From the NCBI GenBank assembly GCA_021378565.1, contig JAACJU010000003.1, positions 96,789 to 160,788 on the forward strand: 64,000 nt of DNA. Direction: 5' to 3'. Below the pieces are notes generated by a model. The model was not told the origin of the DNA. It worked only from the letters and a program-made list of their open reading frames with translations, and searched no databases. The DNA comes from Arcobacter sp. LC1 (GTDB taxonomy: Bacteria; Campylobacterota; Campylobacteria; Campylobacterales; Arcobacteraceae). Shown here piece by piece: positions 26,485-32,454 of this stretch (the stretch's first letter is position 1; each line of letters opens with the position of its first letter). The position numbers and the translations under genes are program-made.

Positions 26485-27351
26485 ATGGTAATTAACACAA
26501 ATGTAGCAGCATTAAATGCGATTGAAAACGAAACTCTAGCTGGCAAAAGACTAACTCAATCTTTAGAAAAATTGTCTTCTGGTCTACAAATCAACAAAGC
26601 AAGTGATGACGCATCGGGTCTTGCAATTGCGGATAAACTTAGAACTCAGGCCTCAGGTATCTCTCAAGCAATCGCAAATGGTAACTCAGCAGTTGCATTA
26701 GTGCAAATTGCAGATAAAGCTATGGCTGAAGATTCTAATATTTTAGATACTGTAAAACGAAAATTAGTTCAAGCAGCGACAGCTACCACTTCAGGAACAG
26801 GTAGAGAAGCGATTGCTAAAGATGTTAGTAAGTTACTTCAACAATTAAATAATATTGCGGCACAAACAAACTACAATGGTATGTATCTTTTGCAATATTC
26901 AGCAGCTAATTCTACACAAGCAGCAGATACTTTGACTTTCCAAATGGGTGGGCTAGCAGCAAATACTATGAGTACAGTTTCAGGAGTTAGAGCAAATATT
27001 TCTGGACTTGGACTTACAACTTTGCTTACACTAACTGAAATTGGTGGTGCAACTCTTGGCTTATCTGCAACACACGCAAGAGATCAAATGATTATAGTCG
27101 ATCATGCTTTATCAAAAATGAATGAATGGAGAGCTGATTTTGGTTCAACTCAAAATCAAGTTGAATCTGCGGTTAGAAATATGAATTCACAAGAAACAAA
27201 TATTAAAGCTGCTGAGTCTGTTATTAGAGATGTTGATTATGCTGCAGAATCTGCTAAATTTTCTCAAGAAAGCATAATAGCTAAAGCTGGAACTTACGCG
27301 ATTAGTCAATCAGCTCAAATTCAGAAAAATGTATTAAGATTATTACAATAA
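26485..27351 (+). CDS. Flagellin, copy 1 (short type)
   Basis: A 288-residue filament subunit. The N-terminal D0/D1 part (MVINTNVAALNAIE, SLEKLSSGLQINKASDDASG) and the C-terminal part (SAVRNMNSQETNIKAAESV, NVLRLLQ) are classic flagellin. The variable D2/D3 region is almost absent, leaving about 60 residues between the conserved ends, so the filament should be thin with few exposed loops. The D1 helix NILDTVKRKLVQAA resembles the epsilon type that escapes TLR5 recognition in C. jejuni (inference). It is the most divergent of the three tandem copies and has its own unrelated upstream region. Confidence 0.95.
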   Translation: MVINTNVAALNAIENETLAGKRLTQSLEKLSSGLQINKASDDASGLAIADKLRTQASGISQAIANGNSAVALVQIADKAMAEDSNILDTVKRKLVQAATATTSGTGREAIAKDVSKLLQQLNNIAAQTNYNGMYLLQYSAANSTQAADTLTFQMGGLAANTMSTVSGVRANISGLGLTTLLTLTEIGGATLGLSATHARDQMIIVDHALSKMNEWRADFGSTQNQVESAVRNMNSQETNIKAAESVIRDVDYAAESAKFSQESIIAKAGTYAISQSAQIQKNVLRLLQ

Positions 27352-27391: not shown

Positions 27392-27425
27392 CATACTAAA
27401 ACTACAAAACGGTAGGTTTAGTATG
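27392..27425 (+). promoter_or_regulatory. Hairpin that includes the start codon of the next small gene
   Basis: CATACTAAA (27392-27400) pairs perfectly with TTTAGTATG (27417-27425). After one A/G mismatch, CTAC (27402-27405) pairs with GTAG (27412-27415), closing a 6-base loop AAAACG. The stem is 13 bp in total. The ATG at 27423-27425 is the last three bases of the stem. There is no T-run after it, so it is not a normal terminator for the flagellin gene. Confidence 0.75.
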
Positions 27426-27620
27426 AATGAAATAAACGATAGCATACCTAAAAATATTATCAAAATTCAAAAAAAACTAGCTAGCTTTGAAAAAGGCTCT
27501 AGGAATTATGTAAAATATACAAAAATATTAAGAAAACATATAAAAAACCTTACTATGAAAAAAAGACTTCATTCAAATATCAAAACTATTGAAGAAGCTA
27601 AAAAAATATCTGGGTACTAA
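27423..27620 (+). CDS. Small basic helical protein between flagellin genes, unknown function
   Basis: 65 residues, rich in Lys (about 15 of 65), Ile and Asn, and predicted to be almost all helix (IKIQKKLASFEKGSRN, ILRKHIKNLTMKKR). It has no membrane segment and no signal peptide. I do not recognise a family. Its start codon is buried in the hairpin described at 27392-27425, and no clear Shine-Dalgarno sequence stands free, so translation would need the stem to open (for instance by ribosomes from upstream or a partner RNA). Its position between flagellins suggests a flagellin regulator or chaperone-like role, which is inference only. Confidence 0.6.
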   Translation: MNEINDSIPKNIIKIQKKLASFEKGSRNYVKYTKILRKHIKNLTMKKRLHSNIKTIEEAKKISGY

Positions 27621-28128
27621 AACTCTCTCTTCTTTTTTTATTTTTAATTTTCTTCTTTCGTTTTTATTTTATCTCTGTTTTTTCTAGTGCTTTATTTTAA
27701 ATAATCTATAAAAAACGGTTTTAGATTCTAAATATTTCTAAATATTTTAGTAAAAAATAAAAAACTACAATAATTCTTTTCTTTTTTCTAGTGCTTTATT
27801 TAAATTAATCTGTACAATAATGCCTATATTAAAAATATTTTAGATAAATAATAAAAAATTAAAAGCTTTTGTCGCTGACTTAAACTATAATTTAATTCAA
27901 ATTAATTCAAAATTACTGCTATTTATTGCTAAATTTTTACTATTTCATAAAATTTTAGCTATCAAAAAACTCTTTTTATGATTAAAAACTCAAAATTTTC
28001 AAAAAATATTAGCTTTCAAAGCCCATGAAAACGCTAAAACACCTAAATTTACTAAACTTTTCTCAAAATTAGTTTATATTTAAGCTAAAATTTAGAATTG
28101 TAGTGTCATACTTTCATTAGTTATTTTA
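27621..28128. other. Long AT-rich intergenic region with a direct repeat
   Basis: About 500 bp without a credible gene on either strand. A block of about 30 bp starting TTTTTTCTAGTGCTTTATTT occurs twice, at about 27678-27707 and 27782-27811, with small differences at its right end. The first 80 bases are pyrimidine-rich on the plus strand, like the spacer at 198-275. The flagellin copy 2 promoter must lie at the right-hand end. Confidence 0.5.
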
Positions 28129-28239
28129 TAGGGGTTGATTAACTCCGAAGATTTACGTCTATGCTTGTGGATAATTACAAGAATGTATCAAGGCTTCCTG
28201 TCGTCAGGATAAACTTTTTCATAATGGAAAGGATTTATT
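28129..28239 (+). ncRNA. Structured 5' leader of flagellin copy 2
   Basis: Four hairpins can be drawn: GGGGTT/AACTCC (28131-28136 with 28141-28146, loop GATT); CTTGT/ACAAG (28164-28168 with 28177-28181); TCCTG/CAGGA (28196-28200 with 28205-28209); and CTTTTTC (28214-28220) with GGAAAG (28226-28231), the last covering part of the AAGGA ribosome site that ends six bases before the ATG. A homologous leader precedes flagellin copy 3. ATAGG at the 5' end may mark the transcript start. The loop of hairpin 2 contains TGTGGATAA, a perfect DnaA-box sequence, possibly by chance. Confidence 0.65.
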
Positions 28240-29112
28240 ATGGTAATTAACACAAATGTAGCAGCATTAACTGCAATAGAACACGAAACAGAAACATCTA
28301 AAAAGCTAGGTCAATCTTTAGAGAAGCTATCTTCTGGTTTAGAAATCAACAAAGCAAGTGATGATGCGTCTGGTCTTGCAATTGCGGATAAACTTAGAAC
28401 TCAAGCATCAGGTATAAAACAATCAATTGCGAATGGTAACTCAGCAGTTGCATTGATGCAAATCGCAGATAAAGCTATGGGTGAGCAGTCTACTATTTTA
28501 GATACTGTGAAACAAAAATTAATCCAAGCAGCAACAGCAACTACTTCAAAATCCGGTAGGGACGCGATAGCTAAAGATGTTGGTAAATTGCTTCAACAAT
28601 TAAATAATATTGCGGCACAAACAAACTACAATGGAATGTATCTTTTACAATATTCGGCAACTAGTCAAACATCAGCAGATGCACTTACTTTTCAAATGGG
28701 TAACTTAGCAGCAAATACTATGAGTACAGTTACAGGTGTTCGAGCAAATATTGATGGCTTAGGATTAACTTCGCTTAAAACATATGCTGATGTTGGAAAT
28801 GCAACTTTAGGTGGAATAGGTTTAAGTGCTACACATGCAAGAGCTGAAATGGCAAGTGTTGATAAATCTTTATCGAAAATGAATGCATGGAGAGCTGACT
28901 TTGGTTCAACTCAAAATCAACTTGAATCTGCAGTTAGAAATATGGATTCGCAAGAAACAAACCTAAAAGCAGCTGAGTCTGTCATTAGAGATGTTGATTA
29001 CGCATCAGAAAGTGCTACATTTTCAGAAGAAAATATCATAGCAAAAGCGGGAACTTACGCCATAAGTCAGGCTAATGCCACACAAAAAAATGTATTAAGA
29101 TTGCTTCAATAA
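28240..29112 (+). CDS. Flagellin, copy 2 (short type)
   Basis: A 290-residue filament subunit with intact terminal domains (SLEKLSSGLEINKASDDASG; SAVRNMDSQETNLKAAESV; ATQKNVLRLLQ) and a minimal central region (SATSQTSADALTFQMG to GGIGLSATHAR). It is closer to copy 3 than to copy 1, both in protein and in the shared leader, pointing to a duplication that carried the 5' region along. Surface serines and threonines in the centre are candidate sites for pseudaminic acid; the maf and pse genes follow downstream. Confidence 0.95.
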   Translation: MVINTNVAALTAIEHETETSKKLGQSLEKLSSGLEINKASDDASGLAIADKLRTQASGIKQSIANGNSAVALMQIADKAMGEQSTILDTVKQKLIQAATATTSKSGRDAIAKDVGKLLQQLNNIAAQTNYNGMYLLQYSATSQTSADALTFQMGNLAANTMSTVTGVRANIDGLGLTSLKTYADVGNATLGGIGLSATHARAEMASVDKSLSKMNAWRADFGSTQNQLESAVRNMDSQETNLKAAESVIRDVDYASESATFSEENIIAKAGTYAISQANATQKNVLRLLQ

Positions 29113-29290
29113 TAAAGCATCATAATAGTATTTAAAAAATTTAAGTAAATCCAATACAAGGAGAATAAATAAAAAGAAAGAAATGAGTTTTAGGTTTTTG
29201 TTCTAGATTTGATTCTAGATATTTGTTTTTGAGCATTTATTTCTGAACATTTGCCGTTGATAACCAAAAAAGTCAAACTTGAATACTGTA
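29113..29290 (+). other. Spacer between flagellin copies 2 and 3
   Basis: It contains two TCTAGA palindromes (29202-29207 and 29214-29219) that can pair with each other around a 6-base loop and are followed by a T-rich stretch, a weak terminator candidate. GTCAAACTT followed by TACTGTATAGG just before the leader corresponds to GTCATACTT and TATTTTATAGG in front of copy 2, so the promoter is probably duplicated as well. Confidence 0.4.
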
Positions 29291-29397
29291 TAGGTGCTGA
29301 TTAGCTCCGAAGACTAAGAATCTATGCTTGGTAACACAAGAATGTATTCAGGTTCCTGGCATCAGGGTAAACTTTTTCATAATGGAAAGGATTTATT
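29291..29397 (+). ncRNA. Structured 5' leader of flagellin copy 3
   Basis: The homologue of the copy 2 leader. Hairpins: GGTGCT/AGCTCC (29293-29298 with 29303-29308, same GATT loop); CTTG/CAAG (29327-29330 with 29337-29340, shorter loop); TCCTG/CAGGG (29354-29358 with 29363-29367); and CTTTTTC/GGAAAG (29372-29378 with 29384-29389) over the ribosome site. Against copy 2, one pair in hairpin 1 changes T-A to C-G and one pair in hairpin 3 changes from T-A to a T-G wobble, while hairpin 2 keeps its stem with a different loop. That pattern is expected of a conserved RNA fold. Confidence 0.65.
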
Positions 29398-30282
29398 ATG
29401 GTAATTAACACAAATGTTGCAGCTTTAACTGCGATAGAAAACGAAACACAAACTTCTAAAAAGCTAACTAGTTCTTTAGAGAAGTTATCTACTGGTCTAG
29501 AAATCAACAAAGCGAGCGATGATGCGTCTGGTCTTGCAATTGCTGATAAACTTAGAACTCAAGCATCAGGTATAAAACAATCAATTGCGAATGGAAATTC
29601 AGCAGTTGCATTGATGCAAATCGCGGATAAAGCTATGGGAGAACAGTCTAATATTTTAGATACTGTGAAACAAAAACTTATCCAAGCAGCAACAGCAACT
29701 ACCTCAGAAGCAGGTAGAAGTGCAATAGCTAAAGATGTTCACAAATTGTTGGACCAAATAAACAACATTGCAAGTCAAACAAACTACAATGGTATGTATC
29801 TTTTACAAAAAGGTGCTGGAACAACAGGTACTGGAGCGACATCAGCTGATACACTAACTTTCCAAATGGGTAACCTTGCAAGTGATACCATGAGTACAGT
29901 TACAGGGGTTCAAGCAAATGTTGCAGGTTTAAAATTAAGTACCTTATCGAGTTCAACTAAAAGTGGGAATGCAACTTTAGGTGGAGCAGGTTTAAGTGCT
30001 ACAAATGCAAGAGCTGAGATGGCAGTTGTTGATAATGCTTTGACACAAATGAATGCATGGAGAGCGGATTTTGGTTCAACTCAAAATCAACTTGAATCTG
30101 CAGTTAGAAATATGAGTTCGCAAGAAACAAACCTAAAAGCAGCTGAGTCTGTTATTAGAGATGTTGATTACGCATCAGAAAGTGCTACATTTTCGCAAGA
30201 AAATATTATAGCAAAAGCTGGTACTTACGCAATAAGTCAAGCTAATGCTACACAGCAAAATGTTTTAAGACTGCTACAATAG
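29398..30282 (+). CDS. Flagellin, copy 3 (short type)
   Basis: A 294-residue filament subunit with intact ends (SLEKLSTGLEINKASDDASG; SAVRNMSSQETNLKAAESV; NVLRLLQ). The slightly larger centre is Thr/Ser/Gly-rich (GAGTTGTGATSAD and STLSSSTKSGNATLGG), offering more glycosylation sites than the other copies. N-terminal DNA is nearly identical to copy 2. It is the last of the tandem array and is followed by a clear terminator. Confidence 0.95.
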   Translation: MVINTNVAALTAIENETQTSKKLTSSLEKLSTGLEINKASDDASGLAIADKLRTQASGIKQSIANGNSAVALMQIADKAMGEQSNILDTVKQKLIQAATATTSEAGRSAIAKDVHKLLDQINNIASQTNYNGMYLLQKGAGTTGTGATSADTLTFQMGNLASDTMSTVTGVQANVAGLKLSTLSSSTKSGNATLGGAGLSATNARAEMAVVDNALTQMNAWRADFGSTQNQLESAVRNMSSQETNLKAAESVIRDVDYASESATFSQENIIAKAGTYAISQANATQQNVLRLLQ

Positions 30283-30381: not shown

Positions 30382-32454
30382 CTAGAAGTCTTGTTTTTCA
30401 ATAGTTTTTATATAAAACTCTATTATATGGCAAAGTTGTCTAGACCATAAAACTACTACTTCATTTAAAATCTTTGAGTTAAATTTATTATCTTTTTGTA
30501 GAAAATAAAACCTTATATACCTTTGTATAATAAGATTATAACTTATGCAAATACTAGATAAGTATGAGTGACAAAGTGCCTTAAAAAGCATATCAATAAA
30601 TTCTTTTTGTTTTATAAAAAATTCTTCTTCATCTTTAAAATCTTCATTTTCAAAAGTCCTTAAAAATTCTAATATCGGCTCTAAATTTACTAATTCTTTT
30701 TTAAAACTTTCTTTTTCTTTTTTATTTAGAGATTTTATAGAGATTCTAGTAAAAATATCTTTTAGTATAGTGTTGTAGTTTTTAGTAACTTTTTGTTTTG
30801 TATTTTCTGATTTTTCTAGCTTCTCTGTCTTATGAAGATTATCTAGTTTTAAATCTTTTATTTTAAGTGGGATAGTGCCTTCAATAAATGCACCTTGCTC
30901 ATTAAGGTTATAAATCTTTGTTTGTTCTTGTCTAAAAATCTTAATCAAAGTTACATAAATTTTTAAAGAGATTTGAAATAGCCTTGTAGTTAGTACTTCA
31001 TCTAAAAAGTTTCCTTTGATTTTTACAAGTTCATCTCTTAAAGAAAAAGTATCTTTTTTTTCTAAAGCATCTTTATCTTTTAGATTATGTTTTGTATCAG
31101 TATATCCGCTATCATGAGTTTGTCCTGTTTTTTGGTCTAGGGCTAAATCAGTTCCTAAAAGATAAATATTTTCAAATTTTAATAAAAGCAAAATTTGCAT
31201 ACTAACTTCACCGACACTTCGCCCTGAGACTTGAGTGTTATTTTCTAAGATTGAAGAAAAGGTTTCAAGAGCAAAGCAAAACTTATCGTTTTTAAATTCT
31301 TTAAAAATATTATTATCAGAATTACTTGAAATAAGTTTTATAGTATCTTTTATAGCACTTAAAGACTCTTTAAAATGATTGTCGAAAACAAAATTTTGTC
31401 CATCAAGGCTAGTTATGATATCTATTTTTATATTATTTTGTGTTAATTTTTTTATACTTGCTGCCATAGCTACGATAATAAATTTATCCTGATTTTTTTC
31501 TAGCCAAGCAATATTTTTACCCAAAGATGGCCCTGCTCCTGTGAGCAAAACAGGCTTTTGTTTTAGAGTATTTAACTCTTTTAATTTAGAGAAATTTATA
31601 AATCTTTGTTTTCCAAGTAAAGAAATATGCCTTTGAAATGTGTGATAAAGTTGGGCATTAAAGTTATAAAGATAGGGGTCATTATCCATAACATTATTTG
31701 TGATTTGTGAAAAAAGTCTATCAACATTATAATTTGTACTAATATATTTTAAAAAACAACATTCGCCTAAGTTATTTATCGTAAACCTTGAAAATCCTTC
31801 ATAAAAATCAGCTTCATCTTCCATAATAGAAAATACTACACTTTTGCCATCTCTTGCAAAAAGCGAATAATCACAAACGAAGCAAGATAATCTAAAAATC
31901 TCTAAATTATCTTCACAAACAAAAAAATCTCTTGCTTTTATATGAGCTAGGATTTTAGGTATATGCCTTCCTAAAAGTGTCCCTATAAAAATAAACTTAT
32001 CGACTTTTTTGATTTTTTGCTCTTTATCTGTTAAATTGCATTTTAGTATTTTAGTAAATTGTTTTATAGTACCTACTAATCTAGAATTATCGAGGATAAA
32101 CATATTATCAAAATCTTCTGCGCTTAAATCTACATTATTTTGTTCATAATAATAAGGGTTTATTAAGCCTATGGTATTATCTAGATTAAATTTTGTTTTT
32201 ACTATAAGTCTAGAATTAAAAGACTTTGGTTTTTTGTTATAAATATATTTTTTTGTTTTATTATCTAAGATATCAAAATCATTTTCTTTGTCTAAAAGTT
32301 CTAGTGCAAACCTTTCTTTGTAAGAGCCTTGCCCTATTTCGTTTGAAAGATAACCTATTCGCTCAAAAAGTCTTTTATCATAAGTCTCAAAAAATTTTAG
32401 GTTTCCTAAAAAACAAGTTAAAAGTGCACTATTTAAATTTTCTTCTTTTGTCAT
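30382..32454 (-). CDS. Motility accessory factor (Maf), flagellin glycosyltransferase
   Basis: 690 residues. The central domain carries VLLTGAGPSLGKNIAWLEKN (about 302-321) with IITSLDGQ downstream, the DUF115 / 6-hydroxymethylpterin pyrophosphokinase MptE-like core of Maf proteins, which transfer pseudaminic or legionaminic acid to flagellin in the cytoplasm. The N-terminal half matches the Maf helper domain, and the C-terminal 180 residues are helical. It sits directly between the flagellin genes and the pse genes on the opposite strand, as expected for flagellar glycosylation. Eight bases separate it from the pseI remnant upstream. Confidence 0.88.
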   Translation of the reverse strand: MTKEENLNSALLTCFLGNLKFFETYDKRLFERIGYLSNEIGQGSYKERFALELLDKENDFDILDNKTKKYIYNKKPKSFNSRLIVKTKFNLDNTIGLINPYYYEQNNVDLSAEDFDNMFILDNSRLVGTIKQFTKILKCNLTDKEQKIKKVDKFIFIGTLLGRHIPKILAHIKARDFFVCEDNLEIFRLSCFVCDYSLFARDGKSVVFSIMEDEADFYEGFSRFTINNLGECCFLKYISTNYNVDRLFSQITNNVMDNDPYLYNFNAQLYHTFQRHISLLGKQRFINFSKLKELNTLKQKPVLLTGAGPSLGKNIAWLEKNQDKFIIVAMAASIKKLTQNNIKIDIITSLDGQNFVFDNHFKESLSAIKDTIKLISSNSDNNIFKEFKNDKFCFALETFSSILENNTQVSGRSVGEVSMQILLLLKFENIYLLGTDLALDQKTGQTHDSGYTDTKHNLKDKDALEKKDTFSLRDELVKIKGNFLDEVLTTRLFQISLKIYVTLIKIFRQEQTKIYNLNEQGAFIEGTIPLKIKDLKLDNLHKTEKLEKSENTKQKVTKNYNTILKDIFTRISIKSLNKKEKESFKKELVNLEPILEFLRTFENEDFKDEEEFFIKQKEFIDMLFKALCHSYLSSICISYNLIIQRYIRFYFLQKDNKFNSKILNEVVVLWSRQLCHIIEFYIKTIEKQDF

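Follow-up and report, generated by a model that had tools for sequence, protein, structure and literature searches.

In the flagellin array of Arcobacter sp. LC1, two of three flagellin genes are preceded by closely related stretches of DNA, and the question that this locus raises is what these stretches are and how they might bear on the synthesis of flagellin. The window analysed here comprises 64,000 nucleotides (assembly GCA_021378565.1, contig JAACJU010000003.1, positions 96,789 to 160,788 of the forward strand; positions below are counted from its first letter). The original prediction, made from the letters of this DNA, had placed two related leader RNAs in front of the second and third flagellin copies. 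The analysis finds both at these places; they are 83% identical to each other, and each ends at the flagellin ATG (28240 and 29398). They were scored with two covariance models: R1, built from 22 aligned leaders (one identical leader of 23 having been dropped), and R2, a core-only model built from 80 cores. Apart from leaders 2 and 3, nothing in the whole window scores above 14.1 bits with R2. The features are as follows, P1 to P4 being hairpins.

26485..27351, + strand: flagellin 1 (288 aa), leaderless in the R2 scan of the window and so a built-in contrast
27423..27620, + strand: 65-aa basic protein, a speculative candidate partner; no Pfam or NCBIfam match; present in 81/104 family genomes, where it co-occurs with the leader
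28083..28112, + strand: promoter-like block before leader 2, AGCTAA..AGAATT..TGTCATACT, a pattern common upstream of leaders; extended -10-like CATACT at 28107-28112
28126..28239, + strand: leader RNA 2, before flagellin 2; R1 92.6 bits, R2 57.1 bits over 28126-28187
28131..28146, + strand: P1 of leader 2, GGGGTT/AACTCC, loop GATT; covariation across the family, double changes in 4/6 pairs
28149..28160, + strand: P2 of leader 2, AGA/TCT; a short stem in the window and a longer one in relatives; double changes in 5/5 pairs family-wide
28164..28181, + strand: P3 of leader 2, CTTG/CAAG; 100% paired, double changes in 2/4 pairs
28197..28208, + strand: P4 of leader 2, CCTG/CAGG, from folding and relatives; double changes in 7/7 pairs of the P4 that belongs to the other type of module
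28210..28237, + strand: alternative 1 of leader 2, predicted SD-masking hairpin TAAACTTTTTC/GGAAAGGATTTA of type A leaders; 98.2% of cells paired, no double changes
28219..28243, + strand: alternative 2 of leader 2, hairpin TCATAAT/ATTATGG that pairs the start codon and leaves the SD in its loop, part of the minimum-energy fold; relatives 97.1% paired and nearly invariant
28240..29112, + strand: flagellin 2 (290 aa), Pfam Flagellin_N and Flagellin_C
29288..29397, + strand: leader RNA 3, before flagellin 3; R1 106 bits, R2 62.8 bits over 29288-29346
29293..29308, + strand: P1 of leader 3, GGTGCT/AGCTCC with one U-U mismatch, from sequence and family covariation
29311..29323, + strand: P2 of leader 3, AGA/TCT, from sequence and family covariation
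29327..29340, + strand: P3 of leader 3, CTTG/CAAG, from sequence and family covariation
29355..29366, + strand: P4 of leader 3, CCTG/CAGG, from sequence and folding
29368..29395, + strand: SD-masking hairpin of leader 3, in the minimum-energy fold; at 37 °C predicted unpaired 0.22 (SD) and 0.13 (AUG)
29398..30282, + strand: flagellin 3 (294 aa), Pfam Flagellin_N and Flagellin_C
30382..32454, - strand: gene with a Maf-type glycosyltransferase N-terminal domain, beside the flagellin array

Alternatives 1 and 2 of leader 2 are mutually exclusive.

A leader of flagellin genes with clear matches in one family only

A search at the DNA level found matches to the leader in 11 of 104 Arcobacteraceae genomes. 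R1 matches 72 of the 104 and R2 matches 76, including 69 of the 88 good genomes and 15 of the 20 genera; the weakest R2 family matches at E <=1e-5 score 35.2-47 bits (G098, two of the four in G051, G025 and G041). The tie to flagellin genes is close. R1 has 123 matches, spread over 86 loci and comprising 106 distinct copies, and 104 of these copies precede a flagellin start, the remaining two being one at a contig end and one orphan after a flagellin. The orphan core (L094:813-950) closes its flagellin array, with no flagellin downstream and an opposite-strand gene opposite. Viewed from the genes, the leader was found by pattern at 77 of the 97 flagellin genes with sufficient upstream sequence in loci L036-L111 and was absent at 20. 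By genome, it occurs in 76 of the 95 that bear flagellin (three of which, G018, G044 and G066, match flagellin only at ~1e-5) and in none of the nine that do not. Several of the 19 flagellin-bearing genomes without a detected leader are fragmented assemblies; the existence of these 19 suggests that the leader is not essential for flagella.

Beyond Arcobacteraceae, no clear match was found, either in 397 genomes of the phylum or in a pattern scan of 84,980 named species genomes. R1 matched 33 of the 397 genomes, all of them Arcobacteraceae. At E <=0.1, R2 listed 112 of the 397 genomes, of which 36 belong to the family, two of them weak (G045 and G053), and 76 lie outside it; the latter reach at most 30.6 bits, as compared with at least 53.5 bits for the clear family matches in the same search. 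These 76 exceed the ~36 expected from the E-values, which are themselves rough. Nine weak matches were inspected, eight of the 76 outside ones and a second weak match in the family genome G007, and eight of the nine fall inside reading frames; the best (G320) spans the start of a non-flagellin frame of 81 aa. From the eight inspected, we take the outside matches as chance. The pattern scan returned 30 stretches, 28 of which have an R2 match at E <=1e-5 and carry mostly the names Arcobacter, Aliarcobacter, Poseidonibacter, Malaciobacter and Halarcobacter. Of these 28, L144 bears the title Sulfurospirillum sp. and is likely the same record as contig C30 of the family genome G042. The two remaining stretches (Bryobacteraceae and Chitinophaga) have no R2 match.

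In agreement with the original prediction, which did not recognize a known riboswitch class, no Rfam 15 family matches the window at the gathering score, and leader 2 has no match up to E 10; up to E 1, 19 related loci gave only seven miRNA or Thr_leader matches, all far below the cut-offs. No description of the leader was found in the literature on Arcobacter flagellin untranslated regions and RNA motifs, which for the screen of structured RNAs in Arcobacter sp. L by Stav et al. (2019) means its main text (PMC6429828). That screen reported several unnamed candidates confined to Arcobacter, and the string 'flagell' is absent from the main text (PMC6429828). The leader may be among those unnamed candidates, which would amount to an earlier, unnamed sighting.

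A covarying core of three hairpins

The folding energies of the two window leaders are ordinary when set against dinucleotide shuffles (z of -0.95 and -1.58), so that two copies alone are no proof of structure and the case rests on the relatives. The core alignment (A4) holds 80 sequences, that is, 83 non-redundant cores minus three from locus L082 with long P3 insertions. In these 80 MAFFT-aligned cores (P1-P3), 97.2% of cells are paired as compared with 83.1% after shuffling, 151 cells are changed on both sides as compared with 32.3, and the covariation is 0.420, versus 0.154 in shuffles and at most 0.109 when the partners are slid by 1-3 columns. Least convincing of the five measures is the count of pairs that show any double change: it stands at 11 of 15 versus a shuffle mean of 9.0, and since 37 of 500 shuffles also reach 11, this count alone is weak. 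A structure model served to select the core members, and the covariation counts therefore lean toward structure. When all column pairs were scanned freely, the P1 and P3 pairs came out on top, with 11 of the 15 helix pairs among the best 25; the rest of these 25 involve neighbours or columns rich in gaps, and no additional long-range pair stands out.

Across the family, P1 is closed by a loop of four bases, mostly AATG or AATT by eye, P2 ranges from three pairs in the window up to long stems in relatives, and P3 accommodates long insertions, while the joining bases TAGG, ATGCT and AGAA show almost no variation or none among the 80 cores. The locus L082 (G051, minus strand) holds six tandem flagellins, with a long P3-loop insertion in three of the leaders and the remainder apparently intact.

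On the evidence of this sequence comparison, we regard it as confirmed that the leader is a real conserved structured RNA of ~110 bases with five hairpins, of which P1-P3 form the core. Most of what had been read from the two window copies stands: the sequence does contain the change from T-A to C-G in hairpin 1, that from T-A to T-G, and the altered loop length of hairpin 2. The fold also holds, but the number of four hairpins has to be raised to five, P2, which is weak in the window, having been overlooked. The original prediction had further named a lack of other covarying homologues as the outcome that would speak against it, and the search of Campylobacterota genomes with a covariance model gave the opposite. 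The same data bear on the sceptical view that the leaders are a functionless upstream region carried along by tandem gene duplication. The window copies are indeed paralogous and as similar as that view would expect; however, compensatory changes run across the family and the leader is present in 15 of its 20 genera. We find a functionless duplicate hardly credible and consider it refuted by the covariation.

Two exchangeable 3' modules

Downstream of the core, the leaders part ways. Sorting by pattern divides 101 leaders into 30 of type A, 63 of type B and 8 of neither. In type A, a short P4 is followed by UAAAUCUUUU or UAAACUUUUU, able to pair with the SD region. In type B, a different P4, in which 7/7 pairs are changed on both sides, is followed by UCAUAAU, able to pair with AUUAUGA at the start codon. 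The type B alignment (A5) consists of 51 sequences, obtained from 56 distinct 3' parts by removing five (three miscut and two of another type); in these 51, the start-codon helix is 97.1% paired and nearly invariant. As the SD and start-codon helices hardly vary, covariation cannot test them. The sorting and the alignments of the leaders show one core joined to alternative 3' modules.

Possible masking by these modules was approached by ensemble folding of 80 distinct leaders, each compared with eight shuffles from our own dinucleotide-preserving segment-swap routine. In the 19 leaders of type A, the SD is predicted to be unpaired at 0.08, versus 0.49 in shuffles, and the AUG at 0.39 versus 0.41. 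In the other 61, mostly of type B, it is the AUG that is predicted to be closed (0.11 unpaired versus 0.40 shuffled), with the SD at 0.82 versus 0.50. The 3' module is thus predicted to mask one translation-initiation signal more than the shuffled controls do. For 32 leaderless flagellin genes, folded with 60 nt of upstream sequence only, the predicted unpaired values are 0.47 for the SD and 0.35 for the AUG. Start-codon stems of at least seven pairs occur in 56 of the 101 leaders versus 27% of shuffles, a moderate excess; stems of six pairs or fewer are frequent by chance in such AT-rich sequence.

Both window leaders are predicted to be able to form either terminal hairpin. The hairpin that had been proposed to cover the SD is therefore a possible one, but it is one of two alternatives, the other pairing the start codon (CAUAAU/AUUAUG). 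At 37 °C, leader 3 is predicted to be masked, whereas the prediction for leader 2 is not clear-cut, its SD being unpaired at 0.45 and its AUG at 0.61.

Temperature, which the original prediction had offered as a possible signal, is not favoured by these data. An RNA thermometer would act by melting the ribosome-site hairpin, and the AU-rich SD-masking hairpin of type A leaders would suit it. Yet in the window leaders the SD and the AUG are predicted to be paired to nearly the same extent from 15 to 37 °C (the largest change, from 0.00 to 0.13, is that of the leader 3 AUG), and the large conserved core would be both unnecessary for a thermometer and unusual in one, which makes this reading very improbable. 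A peptide-coding leader (attenuator) was also considered and rejected: among the 101 leaders, the frames from the invariant AUG are split 39/33/29 and run for 3-29 codons, with one stopless.

A promoter-like block upstream

Of 99 distinct leader upstreams, 63 carry the promoter-like block, which ends 10-21 nt before TAGG and in relatives takes the form CTAA..TTAAGAATT..TGTCATAAT. The same pattern is met in 110 of 20,000 random 75-mers from the loci and has a single match in the window. We infer that the block at 28083..28112 functions as a promoter. The leaderless flagellins of the g20 genome G102 retain the block (L174, by eye), so the leader resembles a separate module placed between promoter and ribosome site. 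These genomes are without FliA, and the block could be an activator site.

Such an arrangement is of interest for another explanation, in which hairpins at the 5' end passively shield the flagellin mRNA from decay and no signal is involved. Flagellin is an abundant gene product, as that explanation would have it, and wherever the block is found, TAGG, the beginning of P1, would lie near the likely 5' end. For mere protection, however, any stable hairpins would suffice, whereas here the joining bases are near-invariant and the predicted masking of SD or AUG is conserved; we regard a passive stabiliser as quite unlikely.

Known flagellar regulators

The flagellar regulators of Arcobacter have been termed 'yet unknown' (PMC9321776). 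With the FliA model, none of the 104 family genomes scores above the cut-off and 103 score below it, most of the best matches lying in frames of ~600-660 aa, as expected of a housekeeping sigma factor. CsrA (PF02599) is found in none of the 104, whereas three of 14 control genomes are positive.

The closest known parallel is the flaA leader of Campylobacter jejuni, controlled by CsrA-FliW, which likewise is a structured flagellin leader of the same phylum with compensatory changes and a ribosome site in a hairpin (PMC4894983), and which is under translational control, the logic proposed here (PMC4894983). It differs in being 45 nt long, with two stem-loops and a CsrA-bound ANGGA (PMC4894983), whereas the present leader has ~110 nt, five hairpins and a different core. 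In Caulobacter crescentus, a flagellin 5' UTR bound by FlbT likewise serves post-transcriptional control (as cited in PMC4894983); that system belongs to another class and is likened here by description alone.

Could the present leader nevertheless be of the CsrA type? The gene and the logic are the same, the SD contains ANGGA in 99 of 101 leaders, and in 80 of them a GGA lies farther upstream, before the last 25 nt. But unlike in C. jejuni, no CsrA match was found in any of the 104 genomes, GGA is conserved at the SD only, just 56 of the 101 leaders have an ANGGA before their last 25 nt, and window leader 3 has no GGA in that part at all. FliW, present in 66 of the 104 genomes, has no match in the window's own genome and shows no association with the leader (55/76 genomes with it versus 11/19 without, p 0.27, among flagellin-bearing genomes). 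We give this reading virtually no weight: a CsrA-controlled leader is rejected because PF02599 matches none of the 104 genomes and upstream ANGGA is not conserved, and FliW is rejected as a partner of the leader for want of association. It is a separate observation that FliW is retained in 66 genomes of a family in which its C. jejuni target, CsrA, is found in none.

A model for control of flagellin translation

With a little better than even confidence, we propose that the leader prevents the translation of flagellin for as long as its three-hairpin core is not bound by a trans-acting factor, which is probably a protein. Transcription would begin from the conserved promoter-like block, a few bases ahead of P1, and the core would be the recognition part of the RNA and the 3' part its output. 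In type A leaders, the SD is predicted to be sequestered by the pairing segments described above; in type B, a CAUAAU-AUUAUG pairing is predicted to close the start codon and leave the SD in the loop. The signal might report the state of flagellum assembly, in place of the absent FliA and CsrA. The leaderless flagellin of an array would escape this control, and the leader would thereby determine both the choice of flagellin and the timing of its synthesis.

The main competitor is a new class of riboswitch, in which the core would bind a small molecule, a second messenger being the natural guess, and the same output modules would control translation. Riboswitches, too, combine a conserved core with interchangeable expression platforms that mask the SD or AUG, and of these features a covarying conserved core is found here, together with near-invariant joining bases and interchangeable output modules, the masking platform being a prediction made against shuffles. 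Against it stand the single gene type served by 104 of the 106 distinct copies, the restriction of clear matches to one family and the lack of any Rfam riboswitch match. A narrow range together with a single type of target gene is typical of protein-bound leaders. Given that the RNA is tied to one type of gene and to one family, the factor is more probably a protein than a metabolite, and we see a riboswitch as possible, though unlikely. As proposed, the leader would work in the manner of known leader switches, yet it belongs to none of those tested.

If translation is indeed held off in this manner, the family offers a concrete and testable answer to how its filament genes are regulated, namely an RNA seemingly built to block the start of translation. 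The joining of one core to two different blocking devices, moreover, shows regulatory RNAs exchanging their output modules.

A candidate partner protein

For the protein that would bind the core, the small basic protein whose gene lies between those of flagellins 1 and 2 is a weak candidate, suggested by gene content and position: a lead, not a result. It is lysine-rich, and in some relatives as well its gene sits beside flagellins (L110, for example). None of its 81 family genomes is among the nine without flagellin; two of the copies (G049 and G098) contain stops. Among flagellin-bearing genomes, it is present in 73 of the 76 with the leader versus 8 of the 19 without (Fisher p 2.7e-7, kinship ignored). 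The predicted model consists of two helices (pLDDT 87), and a Foldseek search with it gave nothing at E <=0.001. In eight other loci, most of them chosen for their distance from flagellins, the gene lies directly before a RecA-like frame (Pfam RecA for one), which weakens a purely flagellar role.

It is tempting to combine these threads into a new flagellin checkpoint that arose after the loss of FliA and CsrA, with a core and exchangeable modules read by the 65-aa protein, which would release or lock translation according to filament assembly. As a whole, this extended scenario is doubtful. At G098:C4:7075-7718, a weak leader match lies beside the broken copy of the 65-aa gene, as if the two were decaying together.
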